Part shown: positions 47,760-64,000 of the stretch, piece after piece
Layout of the letters: every line of letters starts with the position of its first letter
Numbering within the stretch: the stretch's first letter is position 1
The notes under the pieces: generated by a model
Told to the model about the DNA's origin: nothing
What the model saw: the letters and a program-made list of their open reading frames with translations, nothing else
Database searches by the model: none
Made by a program: the position numbers and the translations under genes
Assembly: GCA_029262455.1 (NCBI GenBank)
Contig: JAJCZJ010000085.1
Span: 1-64,000 of the forward strand
Length of the DNA: 64,000 nt
Direction of reading: 5' to 3'
DNA from: Deltaproteobacteria bacterium
GTDB taxonomy: Bacteria > Desulfobacterota > Binatia > HRBIN30 > CADEER01

Positions 47760-47873
47760 GATACGCCATCGCAGCTTTCAGCGCCTCTGATGCTAAAAAG
47801 TGGCGACGCGGCGACTTGACTTTGGCCGCCAACATTAAGGACACTGCCCGCTGCGGCGCCGGTGAGGGGAAGG

Positions 47874-49580: not shown

Positions 49581-49622
49581 GCGGCACTCACCCGCCACAC
49601 AGCATCTACGGAGGTTGCGCCA

Positions 49623-50738
49623 ATGCGCCGATGTCATTCGACAACCGCAGGACTCATCGCACTCATCCTGACTGCCATGCCGGCGGCTGCGGTCGTCATC
49701 GATTGCGAACCAGCATCCGGCCCGGCAGGTGGCCAGATCGTTGTTACGATTCGGGTTGCTAGCCAAGAGGGGGAGGTCGTCGGAGGCACCCAAAACCTTC
49801 TCTCCTTTGACAACACAATTCTCGACGCTTCGGCCCCTAACGAGGGGTCACCAAACTGCGAGATCAACCCGGACATCGGCTTCGGCACAGGCCCCGACAA
49901 GATCCTCGCCAGCAGCTTCCCTCCCGCAACACCAGACAATGTCCTCGGAATCGTGTTTGCGCAGAACAATCAGTCCGCCATTCCCGACGGCGCACTGTAC
50001 TCGTGCATTTTACAAGTCGCCGCCAACGCGCCGCTCGGGACAAGCTCGGTCGAGATCCTGGATCCTATCGCAAGTGATCCAGCAGGCGATCGCCTGCCAG
50101 CCACGGCGATGGGATGTCAGCTCGAAATCACCGACCCCCCGACCCCGACCAGCACGCCAACGCCCGAAGGATTCTGCGAAGAAGACGGAGACTGCCCGGA
50201 CGATCAAGTCTGTGTCGGTAACCAATGCGCTACGCCGACACCACCCGGGTTCTGTCGGGACACGAGCGACTGTCCCGTCGGCGAGGTTTGTCTCGGCGAA
50301 CGCTGCGCGACTCTCACTCCGACGCTAACGCCGTCTCCGCCGCCGACGTCGACACCGACGCAGGAAGGATTTTGCCAAGGTGACGGCGATTGTCCGGATG
50401 GCGGCGTCTGTGTTGACAACAGCTGCGCAACTCCGACTCCGGAAGGCTTCTGTGAGAGCAACGAGAGCTGCGATCAGGGCGAACTCTGCGTGGAGAACCG
50501 ATGCCAGGTCATCACGCCCACACCGATCGGTTTTTGCGAGAACGACCAACAGTGCCTCAGCGGTGAGCGTTGCATCGACAACCAATGCACAGAGCCAACC
50601 CCGACAGTCGTCGGCGGCGGTGGCGGTAGCTGCAGTTGCAGTGTGGATCCGGACCCACCGGCACGGGCAATGTTGAACGTCTTGCTTGCGCTACTACCGG
50701 TCGTTTGGCTCCGCTACGTGCGACGCAAACCCTGCTAG
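49623..50738 (+). CDS. Cohesin-like, cysteine-repeat surface protein with MYXO-CTERM-like anchor
   Basis: 371 aa. A signal peptide (LIALILTAMPAAAVVIDC) leads into a cohesin-type beta-sandwich with VIDCEPASGPAGGQIVVTIR, FDNTILDAS and an LQVAANAPLGTSSVEILD end. Then five short repeats of the type C-x5-C-P-x-G/D-x3-C-x5-C, joined by Pro/Thr linkers, follow. A Gly-rich GGGGGSCSCS, a hydrophobic helix (ARAMLNVLLALLPVVWL) and RYVRRK end the protein, like MYXO-CTERM sorting tails. A strong GGAGG precedes the ATG. A cell-surface scaffold for the neighbouring dockerin-like protein is a natural inference. Confidence 0.75.
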   Translation: MRRCHSTTAGLIALILTAMPAAAVVIDCEPASGPAGGQIVVTIRVASQEGEVVGGTQNLLSFDNTILDASAPNEGSPNCEINPDIGFGTGPDKILASSFPPATPDNVLGIVFAQNNQSAIPDGALYSCILQVAANAPLGTSSVEILDPIASDPAGDRLPATAMGCQLEITDPPTPTSTPTPEGFCEEDGDCPDDQVCVGNQCATPTPPGFCRDTSDCPVGEVCLGERCATLTPTLTPSPPPTSTPTQEGFCQGDGDCPDGGVCVDNSCATPTPEGFCESNESCDQGELCVENRCQVITPTPIGFCENDQQCLSGERCIDNQCTEPTPTVVGGGGGSCSCSVDPDPPARAMLNVLLALLPVVWLRYVRRKPC

Positions 50739-50930: not shown

Positions 50931-51233
50931 CTAGTGTCCGGCACTTCCCACAGCAACGTAGTGCTCGACCACGGGGAACGGGTCGTAGAAGTGGTGCAGC
51001 AGAGCCTTCCACTCCTGATACTCAGGGGAACCGCGAAACCCTTCGGTGTGATCCTCGAGGGTATCCCACCAGACCAGTAGCAAGTACCGGTGGTCCGCTT
51101 CCAGGCACCGCCGCAGCTCGTGCTTCTGATATCCCTTCATCGAAGAGATAATCGACTCCGCCTTTCGGAACGCTGCTTCGAAGTCGAGCGCCGAGCCGGG
51201 ACGAACTTCTAATACGGCAACTTCCAAAATCAT
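50931..51233 (-). CDS. Small ABM-fold (dimeric alpha-beta barrel) protein
   Basis: About 100 aa, starting at the ATG at 51233. ILEVAVLEVRPGSALDFEAA, RKAESIISSMKGYQKHELRR and YLLLVWWDTLEDHTEGFRGS form an antibiotic-biosynthesis-monooxygenase-type fold. Such proteins may be small monooxygenases, isomerases or heme-degrading-like. It is the last gene of a three-gene minus-strand block with the FadD3-like ligase and LLM oxidoreductase, 42 bases from the ligase stop. Its function in that block is unknown. Confidence 0.75.
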   Translation of the reverse strand: MILEVAVLEVRPGSALDFEAAFRKAESIISSMKGYQKHELRRCLEADHRYLLLVWWDTLEDHTEGFRGSPEYQEWKALLHHFYDPFPVVEHYVAVGSAGH

Positions 51234-51275
51234 CGACCTGCCATACACGTTGCAACGCAAGGCTGCACGCGACTT

Positions 51276-52865
51276 CTACTCTTGGAGAATCTCAGTCGCC
51301 CGCTCGCGCAACACATACTTCATCACTTTGTTGGAGGCGTTCAGCGGCAGATCAGTCACCACTTCCACATAGCGCGGCACCTTGTAGTTGGCCATGTTGT
51401 CTCGGCACCAGGCGATGATCGCATCTGCCTTCGGAGCACAACCTGCCGCCGGCACGACAAAGGCCATCCCCACCTCACCCATGCGCCCGTCCGGCACACC
51501 AATCACCGCCGCCTGCGCGACCTCTTCGTGGTTGAAGAGCAGGTTCTCGATCTCGGCCGGATAGCAGTTGAAACCGCCCATGATGAACATGTCCTTCATG
51601 CGATCGGTGATCCGGATGTACCCCTTCTCGTCCATCACCCCGATGTCCCCGGTGTGGAGCCAGCCATCGGCATCGATCGTATCGCGCGTCGCCTCTTCAT
51701 CTTCGAAGTAGCCGCGCATGACATTGTAGCCACGCACGACAATCTCGCCGGGTTCCCCACGGGCAACCTCGTTCCCTTCCGGGTCCACACAAACCACTTC
51801 GACATCGTCGATCGCTCGCCCCGAAGTCGTCGCAATCGTTTCCGGCTCATCGTCGTAGCGACACATTGTCGCGATGCCACACACCTCCGTCAGGCCATAG
51901 CCGGTAATCACTGTTTCAAAGCCGAGCACGTCGCGCATCTGGTGGATCAATTCGACCGGCGTCGGAGCCGCACCAGTCACCGCAAGGCGCAGACTCGAGA
52001 TGTCGTACTTCGCAAGATCCGGATGCGCCAGGATGGTTTGGTACAACGCCGGTGGCCCGGGCAGGACGCTCACCTGCTCGGTGCCGGCGCGGGCCAGCAC
52101 GGCGGGAACATCGAACACCGCATGCGGCAGAATCGTCGCACCGCGCATCAGGCAAGACATCCACCCCGCCTTGTAACCAAAGGCATGGAAGAAAGGATTG
52201 ACGATGAGATAGCGGTCTCCGGCACGCATCCCGATCACACTGGTCCAGGAAGCGAAGGCCTTGAGGTTTTGCCCGTGAGTCGTCATGACACCCTTCGGCT
52301 TACCGGTGGTGCCCGAGGTAAAGAGAATGTCCGAAAGATCCTCAGGTCGAACCGCCGCGAGCGCGCGCCGCGCCTCATCTTCGCCGACAGCCGCGCCGCC
52401 AGCGAGGAACGCTTGCCAAGAAACCGCGCCCGAAGATTCACCCCGCAGAGAGACCATTTTCTCGAGCGCAGGCAGATCTTGCCCGCGCAGCATCGCAACG
52501 TAATCGGTATCCAGGAAATCACCGACCGTGCACAAGATCCGAGCGCGACTCTTCTGCAGAATGTAAGCAGCTTCGTTGCCCTTCATCCGTGTGTTCAGCG
52601 GTACCAACACCGCCCCAACCGCCTGTAATCCCAGAGCCGCGAGAATCCACTCATGGATATTGGGAGCCCAAACCGCGACCCGATCACCTGGCTTGATGCC
52701 GGCGGCGAGAAACGCCCGGGTCGACTCGACAGCCGCATCGGCGAGTTCGACGAAATTGAGACGCGTCTCCCCGTCTTCGATCGCGCTTGCACTTCCAAAG
52801 CGCTCCGCGGCGGCCATCGCCAGACCGGGGATCGTCATTTTCGATAGATCTACTTCAGTGGACAT
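51276..52865 (-). CDS. fadD3: FadD3-like acyl-CoA ligase (HIP-CoA ligase family)
   Basis: 529-aa AMP-forming ligase. P-loop ILFTSGTTGKPKGVMTTHGQ, FHAFGYKAGWMSCLMRGATI, SVLPGPPALYQTILAHPDL, YGLTEVCGIATMCR and the hinge/lysine loop ITDRMKDMFIMGGFNCYPAE are all present. NPFFHAFGYKAG and VLPGPP resemble mycobacterial FadD3, which activates the steroid C/D-ring fragment HIP. GAGGAGAG precedes the ATG. Nearby ipdA, ipdB, ipdC and echA20 genes make this role likely, but other bulky-acid substrates are possible. Confidence 0.85.
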   Translation of the reverse strand: MSTEVDLSKMTIPGLAMAAAERFGSASAIEDGETRLNFVELADAAVESTRAFLAAGIKPGDRVAVWAPNIHEWILAALGLQAVGAVLVPLNTRMKGNEAAYILQKSRARILCTVGDFLDTDYVAMLRGQDLPALEKMVSLRGESSGAVSWQAFLAGGAAVGEDEARRALAAVRPEDLSDILFTSGTTGKPKGVMTTHGQNLKAFASWTSVIGMRAGDRYLIVNPFFHAFGYKAGWMSCLMRGATILPHAVFDVPAVLARAGTEQVSVLPGPPALYQTILAHPDLAKYDISSLRLAVTGAAPTPVELIHQMRDVLGFETVITGYGLTEVCGIATMCRYDDEPETIATTSGRAIDDVEVVCVDPEGNEVARGEPGEIVVRGYNVMRGYFEDEEATRDTIDADGWLHTGDIGVMDEKGYIRITDRMKDMFIMGGFNCYPAEIENLLFNHEEVAQAAVIGVPDGRMGEVGMAFVVPAAGCAPKADAIIAWCRDNMANYKVPRYVEVVTDLPLNASNKVMKYVLRERATEILQE

Positions 52866-52896
52866 TGCTCAACTCTCCTCACATCCCAACCACGAA

Positions 52897-53733
52897 TCAC
52901 GCAACGAAGGCCGCGTATCGGTCGAGAAGCGGCATCACACCGTCCGCACCGACAGACGGAAGTCGCAGCACGACCTCTTCGATCCCCAGTGATTCGTAGT
53001 AGTCCAGCTTTTCCGGCTTCGGCACCGTTCCAAACGGAACGACGCGCGCGTCCTTCGGGTCGCGCCCCGCCCGCTCCATCGCCGCCCGCAGCTCGGGCAA
53101 CGCCTTGGCTACGCCGGCGCCACCGATCGGTATCCAGCCGTCCGCGTACTCGGCTATGTGCTCGAACAATTTCGGCCCGGCGGCAGCGCCAATGAGAATC
53201 GGCGGGTGTGGTTTCCGCACCGGCTTCGGCCACGACCAGCTATCCTCGAAGTGGACGAAGTCGCCTGAAAACGACGCCGCTTCTTCCGTCCATAATTTCT
53301 TCGTCGCGATGATTTTCTCGCGCACCATCGCCCGACGACTGCGAAACTCAACGCCGTGGTGAGACATCTCCTCGCGGTTCCATCCGAAGCCAATACCGAG
53401 CACAAAACGCCCGGCCGAGCACAGGTCCAGGGTCGCGCACTCCTTGGCCAGCAAGATGGGATCGCGCTGCGCAACCAGGCAGATACCGGTCCCCAACTCG
53501 ATCTTCGAGGTGACCGCCGCTGCTGCCCCCAGGGCCACGAAAGGATCCAGGGTTCTCCGGTACTCCTCCGGCAACACAGCATCACCGGTCGGCGCCGGTG
53601 TACGCCGACTCGCCGGAATGTGCGTGTGCTCGGGCAGGTAGAGCGACGAGTAGCCACGCTCTTCAACGGCTCGCGCGAGATCGACCACATTCATGGATCG
53701 ATCCGTGGCAAACATGGTGATTCCCAGCTTCAT
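52897..53733 (-). CDS. LLM-class F420-dependent oxidoreductase
   Basis: About 278 aa of the luciferase-like fold, TIGR03619-type. MKLGITMFATDRSMNVVDLA, GYSSLYLPEHTHIP, SKIELGTGICLVAQRDPILL, GIGFGWNREEMSHHGV and HPPILIGAAAGPKLFEHIA are the usual landmarks. Such enzymes use F420 or FMN. ATG at 53733 is used; the track start six codons upstream lacks support. It lies 31 bases upstream of the FadD3-like gene and is probably co-transcribed; a related Rv3520c-type enzyme occurs in the mycobacterial cholesterol region. Confidence 0.85.
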   Translation of the reverse strand: MKLGITMFATDRSMNVVDLARAVEERGYSSLYLPEHTHIPASRRTPAPTGDAVLPEEYRRTLDPFVALGAAAAVTSKIELGTGICLVAQRDPILLAKECATLDLCSAGRFVLGIGFGWNREEMSHHGVEFRSRRAMVREKIIATKKLWTEEAASFSGDFVHFEDSWSWPKPVRKPHPPILIGAAAGPKLFEHIAEYADGWIPIGGAGVAKALPELRAAMERAGRDPKDARVVPFGTVPKPEKLDYYESLGIEEVVLRLPSVGADGVMPLLDRYAAFVA

Positions 53734-53854
53734 AGCGAGCAACACCACCACAGAAATGACGTCGGGCCAAGCCAGACGACAATCGCCGGGGCCGATCCGT
53801 TGATGACAATCCTAGCGCAAGATCTATCGGCGGAATCGTGACCAGGACAACCGA

Positions 53855-54982
53855 TCAGTAATCTTTCGTATGCGGACGACCCTCCAACAGGTCTTTCGCC
53901 TGGGCGATCCAGGCGTCGCGCTGCAGACGGCCCTGGTAGTCTTCAAGTTGCGCATCGAGATGCTCAGCCTCATCGGCCCCGAGTGATGCCACCTGCTCGA
54001 AGTAAAAGACGCCCAAGGCGTTCAACGCTCGCTCGAGTTTTGGGCCGATGCCGTTGATCTGCTTCAGGTCGTCCGGTGTGCGCTTACCGCGCCGCGCCGC
54101 TCTTCCAGAGCCTACCACCGAACCGTTGCGATGACCATTGGTCGGTCTTGGCGCCGGGGGCGCCGATTCTGCGGGCTCTTCGGCTTTTGCGCTGGCCGCC
54201 TTGAGCGCTGCAACCTCGTCGCGCAGAGAGAGGATCTTGTCACGTAGCGCCGAGAACGCAAAGTCACAATCCGCATGCACAGATTCGAGCTCTTCTAGCC
54301 GCGCCTTCGTGCTCTCGTGGGCAGATCGCTCGACGTCGATTCCAAGACTCGCGGCGCGCAGAGTAGCAACCTCCTCGCTCATCGTGCCGAGCCGCGTCTC
54401 ACTCTCAGCCACGGTGTCGGCGAGTGCAGCGATGCGCCCCTCGGCCAAGCGCGTCGCCTCGGCTGACTCCGCAACCAGGCCTTCCGCCTCGGCGCATCGT
54501 ACCCGCAAGAGCTCGGCTTCGTGCTGGCTCTCGTCCAGATCGATCTTCAGTTGCTCGGCCTGCTGGGCGGCAGCGACCGCCTCTGCCCGCAATCGTTCCG
54601 CGTCTTTGCGGATTTGTCCCGCCTCCTCGCGGCTCTGCGCCGCCTTCTCATAGGAGTGTCGGAGCTCTTCGACCTGCTCAAGCTGCGCCTCCAATTCCTT
54701 TCGATCTCGCTCTGCTGCAGTCTCGGCGGACTCCAACGCTGACGCCAGCTCGCGCTTTTCGGTCTCGAGCTGCGCCACCCGAGGCTCGAGCAGCAGCGAC
54801 TGTGGCCCGACTTCACGTAGCTTCGCCTCGAGCTCCGCTACGTCGCGCTTGGCGCGCCGAAGTTCTCGAGCGTCACCTGTCCCCGCACTGGCCCTCAGCG
54901 CCCGCATCCACCAACCGATCGCAACGCCGATCAGCGACGCCAAAGCCAGCGAAAATACGATTTGCCAGACTAGATACAACAT
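53855..54982 (-). CDS. Membrane-anchored coiled-coil protein with C-terminal helix-hairpin-helix domain
   Basis: 375 aa: an N-terminal TM helix (IVFSLALASLIGVAIGWWM, about 8-26), a long Ala/Glu/Arg coiled coil (about 40-275), a Pro/Arg linker (about 275-305), and a helix-hairpin-helix fold KQINGIGPKLERALNALGVF. The last domain is like the small HhH domain used in many bacterial envelope or DNA-linked proteins. It follows the BON gene by 25 bases and is probably co-transcribed. Its function is unknown; a link between membrane and DNA or another polymer is possible. Confidence 0.75.
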   Translation of the reverse strand: MLYLVWQIVFSLALASLIGVAIGWWMRALRASAGTGDARELRRAKRDVAELEAKLREVGPQSLLLEPRVAQLETEKRELASALESAETAAERDRKELEAQLEQVEELRHSYEKAAQSREEAGQIRKDAERLRAEAVAAAQQAEQLKIDLDESQHEAELLRVRCAEAEGLVAESAEATRLAEGRIAALADTVAESETRLGTMSEEVATLRAASLGIDVERSAHESTKARLEELESVHADCDFAFSALRDKILSLRDEVAALKAASAKAEEPAESAPPAPRPTNGHRNGSVVGSGRAARRGKRTPDDLKQINGIGPKLERALNALGVFYFEQVASLGADEAEHLDAQLEDYQGRLQRDAWIAQAKDLLEGRPHTKDY

Positions 54983-55007
54983 GAAGACTCCAAACTACCC
55001 ATTGCTA

Positions 55008-56165
55008 TCATCCGTCCCCCCGCCGAGCGGCCGGCGCAGCCAATCTAGCCAAGTCCAGCGTGCAACCAACCGCCTCGAGATCCGACCGGAGATTGTCGTA
55101 GTCTTCGCGATTCGCCGTTTTGCCCGAAACGCGAACGACCTTGGGGCTCACTTCTACCCTGCCGTTTTTGAGTTTGCCGACCCACGGGATCGCACTCATC
55201 AGGCAAGTACCGTAACCTGCTGGCGGCTTGATCGAAGCGACACGAAGGCGATCCCGAACTCGCGCCGGAGAATAGATTTCGCCGGCCTTGCCGAGCCAAG
55301 CCTGCTTCATGTCTTCACTGGCCACCACACCGCTGAGGATTACCGAGTCATCGCGACCCCGCGAAAGCATCGAACGCACGACAGTCGTCCGCACTTCGGC
55401 CACCGGAGCCGGCGAGTATACATCCACGGCCAACTTCATGCCGGAAGGTAACACAGCTGCCAAACTCTCCCGGATTTTTTCCTCGGTTTCCTCCGTCGAC
55501 GCCTTTCCGCTGACGCGCAGGCGCGACATCGTGGCACTCAAACGGCCCTCTTGCAGGTCGCGCAGCGATGCCAATCCCGCAGTGACCGCAACCACCATGC
55601 GTTCGCCCTCTTCGGTCGGTTCGACCATCAAGCGATCGCGCAGCTGCCCGTCCGGAAACAACTCGAGTGCCTTGGCGAGCCAGGTGTCCTTAGCGCGCTC
55701 AGACGGAGCGTGGCCGGTGAACGTCAATGTGCGATCGGCGCTCAACTCAGCCGTGACACGATGAACCGACGAAGCCCGCGGCGCCGCCGGCCCCTGGTCA
55801 ACGGCCGGCTTGGGAGGAATTGGCCGAGCTTGCCCCACTTCCTCTCCCAACGGCGCAATCGACGCTAAGGGCCCCGGGTTGTGACGGGAGCCGACACCTA
55901 GTTCGTTGAAGACCCTACGCACTCCCCGGATTTCGCGCACCAGCTCCCCAGCGCGTTGCTGCGCTACATCGCCCTGCACTCGCCCGCGCAAGTAGACATC
56001 GCGACCACTGACGCTGACCCGCGCCGCCAGCCCTTGCTGGCTCAGGCTGAGTTCGATCTTCTGCGACAAATCGCGCTCGATCGAGTCGACATGTCGCGGC
56101 ACGACCGACACAGCAAGCGCCGCGAACAATAGCACACCGACAAGGATGGGCGTTCTTGTAGTCAC
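55008..56165 (-). CDS. BON-domain envelope protein
   Basis: About 385 aa. A hydrophobic segment (TPILVGVLLFAALAVSVVP) is followed by BON-like repeats, of which the first is IELSLSQQGLAARVSVSGRD with GRVQGDVAQQRAGELVREI, then others near 155-250 and 265-320. BON domains bind membranes or phospholipids; repeats of this type occur in ArfA/OsmY-like proteins. The start is uncertain: GTG at 56165 precedes the hydrophobic leader, while GTG at 56222 gives 19 extra residues without a ribosome-binding site. It is followed by the coiled-coil gene. Confidence 0.7.
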   Translation of the reverse strand: MTTRTPILVGVLLFAALAVSVVPRHVDSIERDLSQKIELSLSQQGLAARVSVSGRDVYLRGRVQGDVAQQRAGELVREIRGVRRVFNELGVGSRHNPGPLASIAPLGEEVGQARPIPPKPAVDQGPAAPRASSVHRVTAELSADRTLTFTGHAPSERAKDTWLAKALELFPDGQLRDRLMVEPTEEGERMVVAVTAGLASLRDLQEGRLSATMSRLRVSGKASTEETEEKIRESLAAVLPSGMKLAVDVYSPAPVAEVRTTVVRSMLSRGRDDSVILSGVVASEDMKQAWLGKAGEIYSPARVRDRLRVASIKPPAGYGTCLMSAIPWVGKLKNGRVEVSPKVVRVSGKTANREDYDNLRSDLEAVGCTLDLARLAAPAARRGDG

Positions 56166-56551
56166 GTTTGGTTCATCTTCTTCAGCGAATTGGACTCGAT
56201 GTGTTTTCAGTCGCCGAACCACATCTGGCGAACATCAACGAGAGACTGACAATCCTTCTTTAAGTTAGCCCACTTGGCAACATCAAATGTCATTACCGGG
56301 GTCGTAAAAACGACAAAACCAGGGACTGGCCTACGACCTTATATTCCGCCGGTGGCGCACCGTTGACACTTTTCCACGCAAGCCGCGGAGCGAGACAAAC
56401 GACCGTTTGACAAGATATGGGCGGTCTGCGAGACACAGAAGTCCCAGCGCGCCTCCCCGATTCCGGGCCAAGGCCGTGTTTTAAAACAATAATGCAAGCG
56501 TCTGTGACGTCCTGGTTCGGGCTCGTCCCAGAACAGAACAGGGGTAATCTG
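56166..56551. other. 386-base divergent intergenic region before ipdA
   Basis: No gene. It contains promoters for the BON block (minus) and the ipdA operon (plus). Two TTGACA hexamers (56363 and 56407) lack a good -10 partner. A GTCGT-AAAA-ACGAC hairpin lies at 56301-56314 and a perfect TGTTTTAAAACA palindrome at 56477-56488. Confidence 0.5.
56477..56488. promoter_or_regulatory. TGTTTTAAAACA palindrome upstream of ipdA
   Basis: A 12-base perfect palindrome, 64 bases before the ipdA GTG. It could be an operator for a dimeric regulator, but its short A/T core also fits chance. It does not match the KstR2-type CAAG/CTTG operator as I remember it. Confidence 0.25.
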
Positions 56552-57430
56552 GTGAACAAACGGATGTCGGCCGCCGATGTCGTCAGCGAGCTGCGAAGCG
56601 GCATGACGATCGGAATCGGGGGTTGGGGCGCACGCCGCAAACCGATGGCTCTGGTGCGCGAGCTGGTCCGCTCTGACGTGACCGACCTGACCATTGTCGC
56701 CTATGGCGGTCCCGACGTCGGCATGCTCTGCGCCGCCGGGAAGGTCCGCAAACTCATCTTCGGGTTCGTTTCGCTCGACGTCATCCCCCTCGAAGCACAC
56801 TTCCGAAAGGCCCGCCAAGCCGGCCAGATCGAGGTCATGGAACTGGACGAGGGTATGCTTCAATGGGGACTGCGCGCTGCGTGCTATCGCCTCCCCTTTC
56901 TGCCCATTCGCGCTGGGTTGGCAACCGATATCCAGACCCTCAACACTGAGCTGCGGACGGTACAGTCTCCGTACGCCGACGGCGAAACTCTTCTAGCGAT
57001 GCCGGCGCTGAATCTCGATGCTGCTCTGGTTCATGTCGATCAAGCCGACGAACGCGGCAACGGCCAGGTCCTGGGACCTGACCCATACTTCGACGACCTG
57101 TACTGCGGTGCCGCGAAGCGACGCTACGTGAGCTGCGAACGTATCGTCGACACCGCCGCAATGACCGACTCCGGCTGCGTCCACACTCTCCTGCTCGACC
57201 GCGGTCTGGTCGATGGCGTCGTCGAGGCACCGTTCGGTGCTCATCCGACATCGTGCTCGCCGAACTACGGAATCGACGCCGAGCATCTTCGCACCTACTC
57301 GGCGTCGGCCAAGGAGGAAACCGGCTGGGCCGATTATCGAGCCAAGTTTGTCGATGTAGACGACGCTTCTTATGTCAACGCTGTCGGTGGCGCCGAAAAG
57401 GTGTCCTCGATCCCGCACACGATCTTCTAA
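56552..57430 (+). CDS. ipdA: IpdA-like CoA-transferase-family hydrolase alpha subunit
   Basis: About 292 aa from GTG 56552, preceded by AGGGG seven bases upstream. The ORF extends further, but that part lacks family similarity. VSELRSGMTIGIGGWGARRK, DLTIVAYGGPDVGMLCAAGK, MELDEGMLQWGLRAACYRLP and FLPIRAGLATDI closely follow mycobacterial IpdA, the alpha subunit of the ring-opening COCHEA-CoA hydrolase in steroid C/D-ring degradation. The gene is directly followed by ipdB (14 bases). IpdA/IpdB act as a heterodimer without CoA-transferase activity in mycobacteria. Confidence 0.88.
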   Translation: MNKRMSAADVVSELRSGMTIGIGGWGARRKPMALVRELVRSDVTDLTIVAYGGPDVGMLCAAGKVRKLIFGFVSLDVIPLEAHFRKARQAGQIEVMELDEGMLQWGLRAACYRLPFLPIRAGLATDIQTLNTELRTVQSPYADGETLLAMPALNLDAALVHVDQADERGNGQVLGPDPYFDDLYCGAAKRRYVSCERIVDTAAMTDSGCVHTLLLDRGLVDGVVEAPFGAHPTSCSPNYGIDAEHLRTYSASAKEETGWADYRAKFVDVDDASYVNAVGGAEKVSSIPHTIF

Positions 57431-57444
57431 AGGCGAGAAACTCC

Positions 57445-58212
57445 ATGGCAAACGTTGACTACACCCTGGCCGATCTCTGTATCACCGCCGCCGCCGAGGC
57501 CTGGCGCGGCGACGGCGAGATCCTCGCATCCGGTATCGGCATCGTGCCCCGCCTCGCCGCCGGACTGGCGTGGCGCACCCATAGTCCGGACCTCATGATG
57601 ACCGACAGCGAGTCAGTGCTGGTCTCGGAGCCGGTCCCCGTCGGCCCGCGCGACGGCTACGAGCCAAAGGTCGAAGGCTGGATGCCGTTTCGCCGCGTTT
57701 TCGACATTCTATGGAGCGGTCGCCGCCACGCCATGACCAGCCCGACGCAGCTCGACCGCCGCGGCAACATCAACATTTCCTTCATTGGCGACCCCAAGCG
57801 ACCAAAGGTGCAACTGCTCGGCGCGCGCGGCATTCCGGGCAACACGATCAACCACGCCTGCTCGTTCTTTGTCCCCAGCCATACGCAGCGCACCTTCGTC
57901 GAACGGGTCGACATGGCCTCGGGAGTCGGATTCGACGACTCCCGATGGGACAAGGGCACGCGGCGCGATTGGATGGATCTACGCCTGGTCGTCAGCAACT
58001 TGGCGGTCATGGACTTCAAGGGGCCCAACAACCGCCTCCGCATCCTCTCAACCCACCCAGGAGTCAGCGTCCAGCAAGTTCAGGAGCAGACCGCTTTCGA
58101 TCTGTGCGTTGCCGAGAATGTTGGCGAAACGCCCACACCATCCGCCGAGCAAACGGCAATCCTCAACGAATTAGACCCGCACGGGCAGCGCGCCGCAACG
58201 GTGAAAGCCTAG
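57445..58212 (+). CDS. ipdB: IpdB-like CoA-transferase-family hydrolase beta subunit
   Basis: About 255 aa from ATG 57445, with AAAGGCGAG about nine bases upstream. The pattern VEGWMPFRRVFDILWSGRRH, QLDRRGNINISFIGD and ARGIPGNTINHACSFFV matches the IpdB core, as do LRLVVSNLAVMDFKGPNN and LSTHPGVSVQQVQEQT. With IpdA it would open the last steroid ring (COCHEA-CoA). The stop TAG abuts the ATG of ipdC with no gap. Confidence 0.88.
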   Translation: MANVDYTLADLCITAAAEAWRGDGEILASGIGIVPRLAAGLAWRTHSPDLMMTDSESVLVSEPVPVGPRDGYEPKVEGWMPFRRVFDILWSGRRHAMTSPTQLDRRGNINISFIGDPKRPKVQLLGARGIPGNTINHACSFFVPSHTQRTFVERVDMASGVGFDDSRWDKGTRRDWMDLRLVVSNLAVMDFKGPNNRLRILSTHPGVSVQQVQEQTAFDLCVAENVGETPTPSAEQTAILNELDPHGQRAATVKA

Positions 58213-59268
58213 ATGCCGTCAGCGGTTCTCAACACCGCGCTCTGCGAAACGCTCGGCTGTCGATTTCCCATCATCCAGACCGCGATGGGTTGGGTAGCGA
58301 CCCCCGAGTTGGTCGCCGGCACCTGCAATGGCGGAGGTTTCGGGTTCCTCGCTGCAGCGACATCGAGACCGGAGCAGGCCGAAGCGGATATTGAGAAGGT
58401 TAAGAATCTTACGGATAAGCCGTTCGGAGTGAACTTCCTCATGGAGCAGCCCGGCGCGGCTGCGATCGTCGATTCGATCATCCGCCACGGCGCCAAGGCC
58501 GCCAGCTACAGCCGCTCGCCGAACAAGGATTTCATCCAGAAGTTCAAAGACGCCGGCATTCTATGTGTTCCAACCGTAGGCGCAGCGCGCCACGCTGAAA
58601 AGGCAGTCGAACTCGGCGCCGACATGATCGTCGCACAAGGCGGCGAAGGTGGCGGCCATACCGGCAGCGTCCCAACCTCGCTTCTGCTTCCGCAAGTCGT
58701 CGCCGCCGTCGAGGTGCCGGTCGTCGCTGCCGGCGGCTTTCACAGCGGCCAGGGCCTGGTCGCGGCACTCGCCTATGGCGCGGTCGGCATTGCGATGGGC
58801 ACTCGCTTCCTTCTCACCAAAGAAAGCCCCGTCCCCGAAGACACGGCCAAACGATACTTCGCCGCCTCGGTGATGGACGTCCCGATCACCACACAAGTCG
58901 ACGGCTTACCGCAACGGGTCGTACGCAACGAGCTCGTGCAAGAACTCGAAGCGAGCAACTCGGCGACGCTGCTGATCCGCGCACTGCGCAGTGCTCTCGA
59001 GTATCGGAAGATGACCGGCGCATCGATCAGCGAGCTACTATCGGCCGCGTTCTCCATGCAGAAGAACGACAAACTCACCCGCGCGCAGATGATCATGGCG
59101 GCAAACGCGCCGATTTTGATCCGCCGCGCGATGGTCGAAGGCGTCCCCTCGGAGGGCGTTCTGCCGAGCGGCCAGGTCACCGGGCTCATCGAAGACCAAC
59201 CTAGCTGCGAAGAACTGCTGTCGCGTATCATGAGCGAAGCTGAAGAAGCGCTCGCTCGCCTGCGTTGA
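58213..59268 (+). CDS. ipdC: IpdC-like nitronate-monooxygenase-fold reductase
   Basis: 351-aa TIM-barrel flavoprotein. FPIIQTAMGWVATPELVAGT, KNLTDKPFGVNFLMEQPG, VPTVGAARHAEKAVELGAD, IVAQGGEGGGHTGSVPTSLL and GVLPSGQVTGLIEDQPSCEE correspond to mycobacterial IpdC, a double-bond reductase of HIP catabolism. Family name aside, nitronate oxidation is unlikely in this operon. It starts right after ipdB and overlaps the open frame of echA20. Confidence 0.87.
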   Translation: MPSAVLNTALCETLGCRFPIIQTAMGWVATPELVAGTCNGGGFGFLAAATSRPEQAEADIEKVKNLTDKPFGVNFLMEQPGAAAIVDSIIRHGAKAASYSRSPNKDFIQKFKDAGILCVPTVGAARHAEKAVELGADMIVAQGGEGGGHTGSVPTSLLLPQVVAAVEVPVVAAGGFHSGQGLVAALAYGAVGIAMGTRFLLTKESPVPEDTAKRYFAASVMDVPITTQVDGLPQRVVRNELVQELEASNSATLLIRALRSALEYRKMTGASISELLSAAFSMQKNDKLTRAQMIMAANAPILIRRAMVEGVPSEGVLPSGQVTGLIEDQPSCEELLSRIMSEAEEALARLR

Positions 59269-59282
59269 AGAAGGAGGATGTC

Positions 59283-60035
59283 GTGTCATTTCACACTACC
59301 GTAGATGAAGGTCTGGCCGACCTCGTACTGGATCACCCTCCCGTCAACGCCTTTGACAGCGACGGATGGATCAACCTGTCCAAGGAGATCAAGTCCATCG
59401 GACAGCGCGAAGACGTCAACTGTATCCTCATCTCGGCGAAAGGCCGCGGCTTCTGTGCCGGCGTCGATATCAAGGAGCTCGCCAAAGACGGTACGATCAT
59501 CACCAAGGTCAACCACGGCTGCTACGAGACCTTCGCCGCGATTCACGATTGCCCCGTCCCAGTCATCTCGGCTGCTCACGGCTTCGTCCTCGGCGGTGGC
59601 ATCGGCATCGTCGGTGCATCGGACATCATCATCGCATCCGAGGACGCGACCTTCGGATTGCCCGAGATCGATCGCGGCGCCCTCGGCGCGGCGACCCATT
59701 TGCTGCGGATGTTCCCGATTCAAAAGGTCCGCCGCATGCTCTACTCGGGCGAACCCATCACCGCCCAGGAAGCCTATCGCCTCGGAGCCCTCGAGTCGGT
59801 GGTGCCCGCCGACCAGTTGATGCCAACCGCACACGAGCTCGCAAAAAAGATCGCCGCCAAGAGCGCCAAAGCACTGCGGCTCGCCAAGGAGTCGCTGAAC
59901 GGCATCGAGCTGCTCGATATCAAGCGCAGTTACCGCTACGAGCAGGGCTTCACTCTCGAACTCTACACCAACAAAGATTCCCAAGAGGCACGCGACGCCT
60001 TCGTCGAGAAGCGCGAAGCCAAGTTCGAGAAATGA
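59283..60035 (+). CDS. echA20: EchA20-like enoyl-CoA hydratase/hydrolase
   Basis: About 250 aa of the crotonase fold. I place the start at GTG 59283, because AAGGAGG lies five bases upstream; the frame also opens at TTG 59265. DHPPVNAFDSDGW, ILISAKGRGFCAGVDIKELA, GFVLGGGIGIVGASDIIIA and the run ASEDATFGLPEIDRGALGAA match mycobacterial EchA20, which hydrolyses a ring in HIP degradation. The last Lys-rich residues are ordinary. A 49-base gap precedes the next gene. Confidence 0.88.
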   Translation: MSFHTTVDEGLADLVLDHPPVNAFDSDGWINLSKEIKSIGQREDVNCILISAKGRGFCAGVDIKELAKDGTIITKVNHGCYETFAAIHDCPVPVISAAHGFVLGGGIGIVGASDIIIASEDATFGLPEIDRGALGAATHLLRMFPIQKVRRMLYSGEPITAQEAYRLGALESVVPADQLMPTAHELAKKIAAKSAKALRLAKESLNGIELLDIKRSYRYEQGFTLELYTNKDSQEARDAFVEKREAKFEK

Positions 60036-60084
60036 GCGAAGCGAGCTCATCGGAGCGCGAAGCGCGCACGGGAGCGAATTCATA

Positions 60085-61242
60085 ATGGAATTGTCGTTTA
60101 GTCCGCAGCTACAAGCATTCCGCGCGGAAGCGCGGACCTGGTTAGACGCCAACGTCCCCGACCCGGCGCTGCCTTCGCTCGATACGGCCGAAGGGTTCGC
60201 CCTTCACCGCGGGTGGGAACGCAAGCTCAACGAAGGCCGGTGGGCGATGGTGCCTTGGCCGGTCGAGTACGGCGGTCGCGGGGCCAACCTCATCGAGTGG
60301 CTGGTATTCGAAGAGGAGTACTACCGCGCCGGCGCGCCGTTGCGGGTCAATCAGAACGGCATCTTCCTGCTCGGCCCGACTCTGATGGAATACGGTACGC
60401 CCGAGCAGAAAGCGCGCTTTCTGCCCAAAATGGCGTCCGGCGAAGAGATCTGGGCGCAGGGCTGGTCCGAACCCAACGCCGGTAGCGATATGGCGGCGAT
60501 TCGGTCGACCGCCCGTCGTGAAGGAGACTTTTTCGTCCTCAACGGACAGAAGACCTGGGCGTCGCGCGGCGCTTTCGCCGATTGGCTGTTCGGCATCTTC
60601 CGCACCGACCCCGACTCTGAGCGGCACCGCGGCCTCACGTTCATCCTGATCCCGCTCGACGCTCCCGGCGTCAACGTACGACCGATCGCCCAGCTCGACG
60701 GCGAGACCGGCTTTGCCGAGGTTTTCTTCGACGAAGCCAAGGTGCATGTCGAGAATCAACTCGGCGATGAAGGCGGAGGTTGGAAGGTCGCGATGGCGAC
60801 GGCCGGCTTCGAGCGCGGGTTGATGTTGCGCTCACCCGCACGCTTTCAAGCGACGGCGGCGCGCCTGGTCGAGCTCTACCGCGAAGTCGGAGACAGCGCC
60901 GACCCGGCCCTGCGCGACGCTGTCGGCAGAGCTTGGACCAGCGCCGAAGCGTACTGCTTGAACACCTACCAAACAGCGTCGCGCCTGATCGCCGGCGGCA
61001 GTATCGGATCCGAAGCCAGCTTGAACAAGATCTTCTGGTCCGAAATGGACGTCCACATGCACGAGACAGCCCTGTCCTTGCTCGGCGCTCGCTCGCAACT
61101 CTTGCCGCACGCACCCGAGGCCGGAAACGTCGGCAGCTGGCTCGACGGTTTCCTCTTTTCGCTCGCCGGTCCGATCTACGCCGGGACCAACGAAATTCAA
61201 CGCAATGTCATCGCCGAGCGCCTGCTCGGATTGCCTCGATAA
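60085..61242 (+). CDS. Acyl-CoA dehydrogenase (steroid-type FadE)
   Basis: 385-aa FAD enzyme. WAQGWSEPNAGSDMAAIRST and FVLNGQKTWASRGAFADWLF lie in the FAD/CoA region. At the usual catalytic-Glu position near the C-terminus it reads IYAGTNEIQRNVIAERLLGL, with Ala where MCAD has Glu; a Glu in the AGFERGLML helix is the likelier base, as in isovaleryl-type enzymes. Together with the next gene it may form the mixed alpha/beta enzymes seen in steroid catabolism (FadE31/32/33-like). Which steroid acyl-CoA it acts on is unknown. Confidence 0.88.
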   Translation: MELSFSPQLQAFRAEARTWLDANVPDPALPSLDTAEGFALHRGWERKLNEGRWAMVPWPVEYGGRGANLIEWLVFEEEYYRAGAPLRVNQNGIFLLGPTLMEYGTPEQKARFLPKMASGEEIWAQGWSEPNAGSDMAAIRSTARREGDFFVLNGQKTWASRGAFADWLFGIFRTDPDSERHRGLTFILIPLDAPGVNVRPIAQLDGETGFAEVFFDEAKVHVENQLGDEGGGWKVAMATAGFERGLMLRSPARFQATAARLVELYREVGDSADPALRDAVGRAWTSAEAYCLNTYQTASRLIAGGSIGSEASLNKIFWSEMDVHMHETALSLLGARSQLLPHAPEAGNVGSWLDGFLFSLAGPIYAGTNEIQRNVIAERLLGLPR

Positions 61243-61271
61243 CCGCCAAACCCAACAGCGAAGACTGACAA

Positions 61272-62333
61272 ATGGATTTCACTTTCAGCGAAGATCACGC
61301 AATGTTCCGCGACAGCGTTCGCGGCCTACTCGAACGCGAGTGCACGCCGGAACGAGTCCGAACCCTTTGGCAACCAAGCGACTCGCCCGGGAGTCGTGTG
61401 CTTTGGGGCAAGCTCGCCGAGCTCGGCATCTTCGGCATGATGGCGCCGGAAAACGCCGGCGGACTGGCGATGAACGAGGTCGATCTGGTCCTCCCGCTCA
61501 TCGAAACCGGCAGAGCCGCCTTCCCGGGCCCGGTCGTCGAATGTGCGGCCGTCGCGGTCCCAGCATTGCGCGACCTCGGCGACGAAGCTCTGCAGGAACT
61601 TTGGCTAGCCGGTGTCGCGAGCGGCGACACGATTCTCGGCTTCGCTCACGCGGCAAACAACCTCGTCGCCGACGCCGATGTCGTCGACGCACTCCTGGTC
61701 GGACAGGGTAGCGAACTCCATCTCTTTCCGTCCGATCAATTGAGCTTGACTCACCAGCCGGCAAACGACCCGGGCCGGCGACTCTTCAAGGTCGACGTCT
61801 CCTCGGGCTCGGCAGACACCCGCATCGCCGGCGGACAAGCAGCGAGCAGCTTGATCGCCGACGCATTGGACCGCGGCGCGTTCGGAACGGCCGCCCAGCT
61901 CGTCGGCGTCGCGCAGCAGCTCGTCGACATCGCGGTTACCTACGCAACGCAACGCGAACAGTTCGGCAAGCCCATTGGTTCGTTCCAAGCGATCAAACAC
62001 GCACTCGCTACCGTCCAGGTGAAGATCGAGTTCGCCAAGCCCCTGCTCTATCGAGCCGCCAACTCACTGGCGACCCGAGCCGATACTCGATCGGCCGACG
62101 TCTCACAGGCCAAGGCCGGCGCGGGAGAAGCCGCCACCGCGGCCGCCAAGACATCCCTGCAAGTCCACGGCGCGATCGGCTATACCTGGGAGTGCGATCT
62201 ACAGATCTGGATGAAGCGCGCCTGGTCTCTCGACCTCGCGTGGGGCAGCGCGGCGTTTCACCGCGGACGTGTTGCCGACGCAATCATCGATGGGAGTAGC
62301 CCGGCACGCAGTTTCGGATTCGAGGCGCGCTAG
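61272..62333 (+). CDS. Second acyl-CoA dehydrogenase (FadE beta-type)
   Basis: 353 aa, shorter than the first. MDFTFSEDHAMFRDSVRGLL, LAELGIFGMMAPENAGGLAM, QREQFGKPIGSFQAIKHALA and SLQVHGAIGYTWECDLQIWM fit the fold, but the middle beta domain is reduced and the EGT-type Glu is absent. This fits the partner subunit of steroid-type alpha2-beta2 dehydrogenases. It lies 29 bases after the first dehydrogenase gene. Confidence 0.85.
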   Translation: MDFTFSEDHAMFRDSVRGLLERECTPERVRTLWQPSDSPGSRVLWGKLAELGIFGMMAPENAGGLAMNEVDLVLPLIETGRAAFPGPVVECAAVAVPALRDLGDEALQELWLAGVASGDTILGFAHAANNLVADADVVDALLVGQGSELHLFPSDQLSLTHQPANDPGRRLFKVDVSSGSADTRIAGGQAASSLIADALDRGAFGTAAQLVGVAQQLVDIAVTYATQREQFGKPIGSFQAIKHALATVQVKIEFAKPLLYRAANSLATRADTRSADVSQAKAGAGEAATAAAKTSLQVHGAIGYTWECDLQIWMKRAWSLDLAWGSAAFHRGRVADAIIDGSSPARSFGFEAR

Positions 62334-62439
62334 CAACTGTTACCACACGAAATTCACGATACACTTACAAGAAGAGTCTCACAGCAGGCGTCGGCAGACG
62401 CCGGTCGAGGAATAGTCGCAGCTTCAGGAGTATAGATCG

Positions 62440-62871
62440 ATGGCGAAGACGAAGGTTCCCGCAATAGACGATTGGTTTCGGATGGACTTTGCCGAACCAC
62501 AATTACTCGGAAGCCGCTGTACCGAGTGCGGCACTTACTTTTTCCCAAAGGAGTCCCATTTTTGCCGCAATCCCAATTGCTCGGGGACGAACTTCGAAGA
62601 AGCCCCGCTGTCGCCACGCGGCAAGCTGTGGTCGTTCACCAACAACTGCTATCCACCGCCAAAACCCTACATGGCGCCGGACCCGTTCGTCCCCTACATC
62701 GTCGCCGCCGTCGAGCTCGAGCGCGAGAAGATGGTCGTCCTCGGCCAGGTCGAGGCAAGCGTAAAGATCAACGAGCTCTCGGCCGGGATGGACATGGAAC
62801 TCTACTTGGAGACGTTGTTCGAAGACGACGACAACGAATACATCGTCTGGAAATGGCGCCCGGTCGCGTGA
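62440..62871 (+). CDS. Zn-ribbon/OB-fold (DUF35) protein
   Basis: 143 aa. Cys pairs SRCTECGTYFFP and CRNPNCSG form a zinc ribbon, followed by an OB-fold with SPRGKLWSFTNNCYPPPKPY and DPFVPYIVAAVELEREKMVV. DUF35 proteins are partners of thiolase-fold lipid-transfer proteins and acyl-CoA aldolases (e.g. ChsH2 with Ltp2). It lies 22 bases before the Ltp-type gene. A CAGGAG is about ten bases before the ATG. Confidence 0.9.
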   Translation: MAKTKVPAIDDWFRMDFAEPQLLGSRCTECGTYFFPKESHFCRNPNCSGTNFEEAPLSPRGKLWSFTNNCYPPPKPYMAPDPFVPYIVAAVELEREKMVVLGQVEASVKINELSAGMDMELYLETLFEDDDNEYIVWKWRPVA

Positions 62872-62893
62872 CCGGCTTCGAAAGGACAATCAG

Positions 62894-64000
62894 ATGACGA
62901 AAGAAGTCGCGGTTCTCGGAGTCGGGATGCACCCGTGGGGCAAGTGGGGAAAGAACTTTGTCGAGTACGGAGTCAAAGCGGCGCGCGACGCGTTGGCCGA
63001 TGCCGGCATCGAATGGAAGGACGTCCAGTTCGTTTCCGGCGGAGACACCATCCGCAATGGCTATCCGGGCTACGTCGCCGGTGCGACCTTCTGTCAGGCC
63101 ATGGGCTGGAGCGGCGCCCGCGTCGCGAGTTCTTACGGCGCCTGCGCCTCCGGGTCACAAGCCATCAACAACGCTCGTGCGCAGATCCTCGCCGGACTCT
63201 GTGACGTCGCCTTGGTCGTCGGCGCCGACGCCGCGCCGAAAGGATTCTTCGCTCCGCAGGGCGGCGATCGCCCGGACGATCCGGATTGGTTGCGCTTCCG
63301 ATTGATTGGAGCGACGAACCCGATCTACTTCGGCCTCTACGCGCGGCGCCGGATGGAGATCTACGGCGCTACCGAACAGGACTTTGCCAAGGTCAAAGTG
63401 AAGAACTCTCGCCACGGACTGAACAATCCAAACGCGCGCTACCGCAAGGAAGTCGCGAAGGAAGACGTGCTGTCGTCTGCGATCGTATCGGATCCACTGC
63501 ACCTGCTCGAGATCTGCGCCACCAGCGACGGCGGCGCGGCGATGGTACTCACCAGCATGGAATACGCCCGCAAGCACGCGACCGACCCGGTGAAGATTGC
63601 CGGGGTATCCACCGTAACTCCCAACTTCCCCAATACTGTGATCGAGATGCCGAATTTTGCGACGGATTCGGCCGCCGCGGTGGCACCGCCTGAGACACCG
63701 TTCAAAGACTCGATCACCAAGCTCGCCTATGAAGAAGCAGGCCTCGGCCCCGAGGACATGAGCATGGCCGAAGTCTACGACCTCTCGACTGCACTCGAGC
63801 TCGACTGGTACGAAAACATCGGCCTGTGTAAGCCCGGCGAAGCGGAGAAGCTGCTCAACGACGGTCACACCACCCTGGGCGGACGGGTTCCCGTCAATCC
63901 GAGTGGCGGCCTCGCCTGTTTCGGGGAGGCGGTACCGGCACAGGCGATCGCGCAGGTCTGCGAGCTCACCTGGCAGCTGCGCGGCCAAGCAGAGGGCCGG
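62894..64000 (+). CDS. Thiolase-fold lipid-transfer protein (Ltp-type), partial
   Basis: Runs off the window end after 369 codons, all open. AAAGGA about eight bases before the ATG supports the start. YGACASGSQAINNARAQIL contains the thiolase nucleophile Cys, GFFAPQGGDRPDDPDWLRFR follows, and GGRVPVNPSGGLACFGEAVP holds the late thiolase region. The pattern is very like mycobacterial Ltp4/Ltp3. With the DUF35 partner it may cut a steroid-derived acyl-CoA by thiolysis or retro-aldol cleavage. Confidence 0.88.
   Translation, partial: MTKEVAVLGVGMHPWGKWGKNFVEYGVKAARDALADAGIEWKDVQFVSGGDTIRNGYPGYVAGATFCQAMGWSGARVASSYGACASGSQAINNARAQILAGLCDVALVVGADAAPKGFFAPQGGDRPDDPDWLRFRLIGATNPIYFGLYARRRMEIYGATEQDFAKVKVKNSRHGLNNPNARYRKEVAKEDVLSSAIVSDPLHLLEICATSDGGAAMVLTSMEYARKHATDPVKIAGVSTVTPNFPNTVIEMPNFATDSAAAVAPPETPFKDSITKLAYEEAGLGPEDMSMAEVYDLSTALELDWYENIGLCKPGEAEKLLNDGHTTLGGRVPVNPSGGLACFGEAVPAQAIAQVCELTWQLRGQAEGR

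Follow-up and report, generated by a model that had tools for sequence, protein, structure and literature searches.

The question raised by the DNA analysed here is whether a bacterium with a set of genes for the catabolism of HIP, a perhydroindane acid comprising rings C and D of the steroid nucleus, is thereby also a sterol degrader. The genes lie between positions 50,931 and 64,000 of the window (the whole stretch analysed, 64,000 nt, i.e., C85:1-64000, where C85 is the 120,352-nt contig JAJCZJ010000085.1) in assembly GCA_029262455.1 of a Deltaproteobacteria bacterium (7.34 Mb in 127 contigs; reported completeness, 100%; contamination, 1.63%). The possibility that C85 is a contaminant was rejected, its GatB matching those of a same-genus and a same-family genome at 83% and 73%, respectively.

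An earlier note on this DNA had recognized a C/D-ring locus that matches closely the mycobacterial KstR2 regulon and would widen the range of sterol degraders. The assignment to HIP catabolism is well supported by the clustering of the predicted FadD3, IpdA, IpdB, IpdC and EchA20 genes. Its extension to sterol degraders, at least by the known aerobic route, is not borne out: HsaC was not found in the genome, and the matches to HsaA and KshA are distant, so that the stretch is to be regarded as a C/D-ring locus and does not show that sterols are degraded through the 9,10-seco route. What we consider fairly probable is that this chromosomal scd/ipd cluster serves to degrade HIP, or a close perhydroindane acid, with a DUF35-Ltp protein pair taking part in the final steps, and that HIP or a late intermediate is provided by other microbes or by a HsaC-less route.

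Genes for rings C and D

Ten window proteins, taken from the listed open reading frames (ORFs), were scanned against NCBIfam and Pfam, and all the components named in the earlier note were recovered by family or structure matches. The predicted ring-opening hydrolase subunits are IpdA (ScdL1; 56552..57430, forward strand; the ORF spans 56417-57430, with matches beginning at residue 46, approx. 56552, where a GTG is the likely start) and IpdB (ScdL2; 57439..58212, forward). The best PDB match of IpdA is 6co6_A, with 331.7 bits versus 97.1 bits for glutaconate CoA-transferase 1poi_A; for IpdB the corresponding values are 204.3 bits (6co6_B) and 56.1 bits (1poi). Thus, an ordinary glutaconate-type CoA-transferase was rejected, as the IpdAB structures score 3.4 and 3.6 times higher. 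The Glu residue of the 'DEGM' motif of IpdA is conserved, the same position being occupied by Ala in 6coj_A. IpdC (ScdK; 58213..59268, forward) is an NMO-family oxidoreductase (PF03060, 246.4 bits; no NCBIfam model above cut-off), which matches at 50-52% three genes adjoining ipdAB in pNL2, pVa1 and Tsukamurella that are annotated as nitronate monooxygenases. EchA20 (ScdY; 59265..60035, forward), the predicted crotonase-fold D-ring hydrolase, scores 357.5 bits with NF005925 (cut-off, 260), and matches the Tsukamurella gene adjoining ipdA at 47.8% and the Vibrio counterpart at 59.7%. A different identity of the crotonase at 59265 was rejected on the basis of the Tsukamurella match, the additional crotonase of proteobacteria (PRK08290) being that found at the ScdN place.

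Two acyl-CoA dehydrogenases follow on the forward strand, one of the ScdM1 type (60085..61242; 60-67% to the same-place genes of pNL2, Vibrio and Burkholderia) and one of the ScdM2 type (61272..62333; 40-41% to those of pNL2 and Vibrio). Next to them are the DUF35 protein, a putative Ltp partner (62440..62871, forward) with PF12172 (zinc ribbon) and PF01796 (ChsH2 OB-fold) above cut-off, and the SCP2-thiolase-like Ltp (62894..64000, forward, continuing beyond the window to C85:64054; 162.9 bits to 6hsj and 148.3 bits to BbsB, 7pxp). The ipdA-led operon extends past the window end to about 68064, with FadA6 (C85:64108-65259; NF005865, 716.7 bits, cut-off, 591), a third acyl-CoA dehydrogenase (C85:65607-66761), a short-chain dehydrogenase/reductase (SDR; C85, approx. 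66787-67557) and a MaoC hydratase (C85:67570-68064). An IpdF-type SDR (C85:92944-93705, reverse; 68% to the Novosphingobium gene) and the adjoining FadE30-type dehydrogenase (C85:93920-95182, reverse; 57.7%, likewise to Novosphingobium) are found approximately 25 kb further along the same contig. Therefore, the HIP genes that could have been missing from the genome (FadA6, MaoC, FadE30, IpdF) are on C85 itself, and a ScdE-type SDR (59%) is on C119.

On the reverse strand are FadD3 (ScdA; 51276..52865), the predicted HIP-CoA ligase (NF005801, 741.8 bits, cut-off, 657; 50.2% to pNL2 FadD3), an LLM-class F420-type oxidoreductase (52897..53751; TIGR03619, 257.8 bits, cut-off, 166.9), relatives of which (61-68%) lie near ipdA in loci L072 and L129 and in genome G463 (labels of this kind are those of our samples), and, downstream of FadD3, an ABM-domain protein (50931..51260; PF03992, 55.8 bits). 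Two other genes (53855-54982 and 55008-56222), outside the family scan, separate the LLM gene from ipdA. The approximately 13 kb stretch thus holds all the genes attributed to it, but it is not a single operon, because FadD3 and the LLM enzyme are on the opposite strand with two genes before ipdA.

The scd names are assigned to the window genes by order and similarity, and the pathway that they suggest would run as follows. FadD3 would form the CoA thioester of HIP, and the FadE30-type and partner dehydrogenases, MaoC, SDR and FadA6 would shorten its propionate side chain. IpdF and IpdC would prepare the bicycle, ring D would be opened by EchA20 and then ring C by IpdAB, and the chain would be completed by ScdM1M2 and a thiolase-fold step, with the DUF35-Ltp pair probably acting in the final steps where proteobacteria use ScdN (perhaps ScdJ). 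In the accessible text of PMC5380842, 5-OH HIC-CoA is the substrate of IpdF and IpdC, EchA20 opens the five-membered ring and IpdAB the six-membered one.

Two further regions complete the description of the contig. At 47862-50738 of the window two proteins with TP-rich linkers adjoin gatAB; in the first of them a dockerin-like repeat was recognized by eye. C85:100212-118634 is a second acyl-CoA island with dehydrogenases, an LLM enzyme, a crotonase, another DUF35-Ltp pair and a TonB-receptor-like gene, in addition to ETF- and CaiB-like genes recognized by eye only.

Distribution of IpdAB and of the DUF35-Ltp pair

IpdA was sought in 148 genomes of the host class and in a separate phylum sample of 395 genomes. 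At E<=1e-50, 24 of the 148 class genomes gave a match and 22 were retained, all with IpdB adjacent (22/22); G198 and G501 were dropped (41-43% identity, no IpdB beside the match). Among the 39 matches obtained in the phylum sample at E<=1e-30, four, all of the host class (our genome, G243, G323 and G360), reach at least 465 bits and the other 35 at most 204 bits; 23 of the 26 loci examined among these weaker matches carry a partner subunit that is 26-37% like IpdB. No genome of this sample outside the host class has an IpdA above 148 bits. In the IpdA tree, which leaves out the fragment of G485, 19 of the 21 class rows and L072 form a single group (SH-aLRT, 96), which adjoins that of Pseudomonadota (joint branch, 99), and with FastTree the class is one group also for IpdC (9 rows; support, 96). 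By taking into account that the class IpdA groups apart from those of both phyla and that, in the phylum sample, no IpdA above 148 bits occurs outside the class, the host phylum is likely neither Actinomycetota nor Pseudomonadota, so that this part of the earlier proposal, namely a location outside actinobacteria and proteobacteria, stands as likely.

A second scan, of named genomes, yielded 80 stretches kept of at least 591 confirmed, 16 of the 80 being Myxococcota-labelled. One of them, L072 (OFTM108, Myxococcota-labelled), has an IpdA that falls in the class group (70%). It also has an HsaC-family match (336.7 bits), and its LLM gene resembles that of the window at 61-62%. Its GatB matches at only 51%, lower than in three searched members of the phylum (57-59%) and in those class genomes that were searched (at least 56%); hence its IpdA does not make it a class member, and transfer is probable. 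L096 (CAMAXE010000024.1), titled as a Klebsiella pneumoniae metagenome-assembled genome (MAG), bears a HIP cluster whose IpdA groups with that of the gammaproteobacterial MAG L092, and its label may be wrong. The Vibrio alfacsensis plasmid pVa1 (L039, NZ_CP032095.1) carries an HsaC-like, IpdAB, IpdC and EchA20 cluster with toxin-antitoxin genes approximately 2 kb downstream. A viral scan with IpdB revealed no relative.

The DUF35-Ltp pair at the HIP locus is, on these comparisons, a lineage trait. It sits between the ScdM2-type dehydrogenase and FadA6 (ScdF) in 14 of the 16 class loci in which the place is covered (our own and 13 others, with Ltp at 76-93%), and it was found at 68-79% in seven named loci (L074, L077, L079, L086, L088, L103 and L129), five of them Myxococcota-labelled. 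In none of these 14 class and seven named loci is there a ScdN beside it. Across 62 covered loci, ScdN (at least 55%) is present in 0 of the 20 with DUF35-Ltp versus 23 of the 42 without (Fisher p 1e-5), an association by lineage. With NF006140 (E<=1e-60), ScdN is found in 3 of the 22 IpdAB genomes (G482, G483 and G485), and it is not universal elsewhere, the Nocardia stretch L043 having none above 29%.

The nucleophilic Cys and the His of the GHP motif are important for thiolases. In all of the 14 aligned HIP-locus copies of Ltp the Cys is conserved and GHP is replaced by GEA, as it is in the second Ltp of C85 (113723-114901); with the His absent, Ltp matches the SCP2-thiolases in fold only. 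Owing to this substitution, Ltp would be expected to cleave C-C bonds in an aldolase-like or some other altered manner, rather than by a standard thiolase reaction.

Rings A and B and the source of HIP

That the organism is a full steroid degrader using the known aerobic 9,10-seco route appears very improbable. The Vibrio HsaC query gave at best 25.9 bits in the genome, and in the family search its best E value is 2.3e-8 (4.8e-9 being the best among the 22 IpdAB genomes), which, with a reported completeness of 100%, largely refutes this route. At E<=1e-40 the HsaC family is found in 49 of the 148 class genomes (hand count), none of which is among the 22 (P 6e-5, for families that are not independent). 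The best HsaA match has an E value of 4e-44, versus 3.2e-117 or lower in six class genomes with KshA and HsaC. What would favour the route is a Rieske protein of the KshA_C family encoded on C30 (115.1 bits) and a KstD-like protein on C85 itself. The former was rejected as KshA, as it is 30-33% like class KshA, which scores 251-264 bits. The latter (C85:97747-99477) matches B. arboris KstD at 49.7%, NF009478 with 647.9 bits (under the cut-off of 789) and 7p18, which we take to be the 3-oxosteroid 1-dehydrogenase of Sterolibacterium, with 601.6 bits. Of the three genes that the earlier note proposed to look for in the same genome, kstD is represented by this KstD-like gene with its score under the family cut-off, hsaC was not found and kshA has only a distant relative.

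KshA proper (KshA_C, 251-264 bits) is found in seven class genomes, all of family f5, none of which is among the IpdA genomes (E<=1e-50). Six of them (G411, G413, G424, G425, G440 and G441) have KshA, HsaA (<=3.2e-117) and HsaC (<=3.9e-55) with no IpdA match, and the seventh (G442, 53% complete) has KshA and HsaC with no HsaA match. In stretches read as DNA (contig G424:C18, L208/L209; G440, L210; G411, L211), genes for HsaA (56-60% to B. arboris) and KstD (57-60%) come after KshA, and in G424 HsaC (60%) lies approximately 5 kb beyond them. A class split could be imagined, in which these genomes would open rings A and B and the 22 would degrade only HIP, with DUF35-Ltp as a hitherto unrecognized terminal C-C-cleaving enzyme of the HIP pathway; we regard it as unlikely. 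If it were true, steroid mineralization in those habitats would pass through exchanged HIP.

HIP scavenging is favoured, and its main rival is the degradation of steroids through a different upstream route, either the oxygen-independent 2,3-seco one (AtcABC) or an unknown path through rings A and B relying on KstD and a divergent dioxygenase, which we hold to be unlikely as well, if slightly less so than the class split. Two observations that weigh against scavenging speak for this rival. The KstD-like gene, best matched by 7p18, would be superfluous for a pure HIP consumer, although a lone Delta1-dehydrogenase is weak evidence of a route. C87:64036-64971 (L230:9036-9971) encodes a divergent 311-residue VOC protein, the one hit by the Vibrio HsaC query. 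Its C-terminal half is similar to extradiol dioxygenases (3b59, 73.8 bits; 2zi8, presumably HsaC, 28.2 bits) with metal ligands that are apparently conserved, by eye, and the protein could be a ring-cleaving dioxygenase of an unknown type. The rival is also favoured by PMC6208644 and PMC8399759, in which the 2,3-seco route, too, leads to HIP and to IpdAB and IpdC. On the other side, AtcABC was not noticed among the C85 ORFs that were read, no search aimed at it having been made. Still less probable is that the substrate of the cluster is a non-steroid bicyclic acid (another terpenoid or a hydrindane) in place of HIP: the failure to find ring A/B enzymes and the lineage-specific DUF35-Ltp and LLM enzymes would be consistent with it, but IpdA, IpdC, EchA20, FadD3 and FadA6 match steroid-cluster genes at approximately 48-70% with the gene order conserved.

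Other findings likewise count against the scavenging of HIP with a DUF35-Ltp-assisted end of the pathway. The HsaC search of the class scored at most 14 candidates per genome, and some of the 22 had more (in our own genome 12 of 12 were scored). The zero overlap of the 22 with the KshA genomes is at chance level (P 0.32 for seven genomes, 0.37 for the six with all three enzymes), and HsaA-like proteins of 344-349 bits occur in two of the 22 (G483 and G484). HsaC-family matches at E<=1e-40, none above the curated cut-off, are present in 8 of the 16 Myxococcota-labelled IpdA genomes listed, so that HIP genes without HsaC are not a general rule, and in one (G544) of the six DUF35-Ltp-bearing named genomes searched. 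As to the DUF35-Ltp pair, it is lacking in two of the 16 covered class loci (G243 and G473, family f7), its place has no coverage in six of the 22 (G323, G453, G459, G469, G480 and G485), and 19 of the 62 covered loci have neither it nor ScdN. For ScdN versus DUF35-Ltp there are no more than two independent pairs on branches with good support, too few to take their exclusion as proof of replacement. No ScdN (NF006140, E<=1e-60) was found in our genome, and no ScdJ on C85, the only contig searched for it (best, 34%). A ScdE-type SDR is absent from its usual place between FadA6 and the third dehydrogenase, where a 347-bp gap (65260-65606) contains a short GC-rich repeat twice (by eye), and the nearest one in the genome (C119:41378-42259) matches at only 59%. 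Finally, G459 and G463 carry a Myxococcota-type IpdA in the IpdA tree, and with FastTree the class is not one group for FadA6 and the first acyl-CoA dehydrogenase.

Probably, either other microbes supply the organism with HIP or a late intermediate, or it makes HIP without HsaC. The accessible text of PMC8399759 has the aerobic 9,10-seco and anaerobic 2,3-seco routes converge at HIP, and cross-feeding is mentioned in what is accessible of that paper and of PMC6208644. According to the part available of Holert 2018 (PMC5790920), a survey that also refers to a previous RefSeq survey by the same authors, 9,10-seco steroid degraders are confined to Actinobacteria and Proteobacteria, with no hsaC in other phyla; PMC9531527, also available in part, places sterol synthesis genes in Binatia as well. 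No report of HIP genes in Binatota, Myxococcota, Deltaproteobacteria, Desulfobacterota or Binatia was found among the listings examined, in a search that largely excluded subscription journals. The bacterium may subsist on a steroid fragment that other organisms leave behind; the locus also indicates possible consumers of HIP and a candidate for a new enzyme pair. Marker screens limited to HIP genes could over-call sterol degraders, since IpdAB is found in 22 of the 148 class genomes, all without a clear HsaC.

Comparison with known clusters

For comparison, pNL2 (Novosphingobium) and pVa1 were read with their annotation, and Burkholderia arboris and Nocardia stretches (L041-L043) as DNA. The IpdA-IpdB-IpdC-EchA20-ACAD-ACAD-FadA6 order (ACAD, acyl-CoA dehydrogenase) is found in pNL2, pVa1 and B. 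arboris with one additional crotonase after IpdB, the complete series being VOC-IpdA-IpdB-crotonase-IpdC-EchA20-ACAD-ACAD-thiolase-SDR in all three, except that in pNL2 the SDR is preceded by a small NTF2-like gene. The VOC gene matches NCBIfam HsaC with 311 bits in B. arboris and 280 bits in Vibrio, both under the cut-off of 450, and the Vibrio crotonase matches PRK08290 (NCBIfam). The order in the three clusters equals that of the C. testosteroni scd genes as given in the accessible part of PMC13101464 (scdL1L2, N, K, Y, M1M2, F, E, C1C2, G, D, J).

The TA441 scd cluster of C. testosteroni was thus compared through its B. arboris, Novosphingobium and Vibrio relatives. L1, L2, K, Y, M1, M2, F, C1 and D all have counterparts in the host locus, in the same order, and those of C2 and G lie elsewhere on C85. 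The host locus differs in having no adjoining ScdN or ScdJ, in the DUF35-Ltp pair between M2 and F, in ScdE not being at its place and in having no tesB/HsaC. With the actinobacterial KstR2 regulon (fadD3, ipdABC, echA20, ipdF, fadE30 and fadA6) it shares the enzyme set, and its best structure matches are IpdAB. In the Tsukamurella and Nocardia loci, however, echA20 precedes ipdA, and the host IpdA groups beside that of Pseudomonadota. By gene order and IpdA phylogeny the locus is therefore closer to the scd/ipd cluster of proteobacteria than to that of actinobacteria, contrary to the close mycobacterial match initially proposed; acquisition from actinobacteria was rejected on the IpdA tree.

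The DUF35-Ltp pair itself resembles Ltp2-ChsH2 and BbsAB in combining a DUF35 protein with a thiolase-fold one, and Ltp scores 113.9 bits with 6ok1, which we take to be Ltp2, and 148.3 bits with 7pxp. Unlike both, the host pair is encoded within a HIP operon, has GEA in place of GHP, and in its DUF35 protein only the zinc-ribbon and OB-fold domains were detected.

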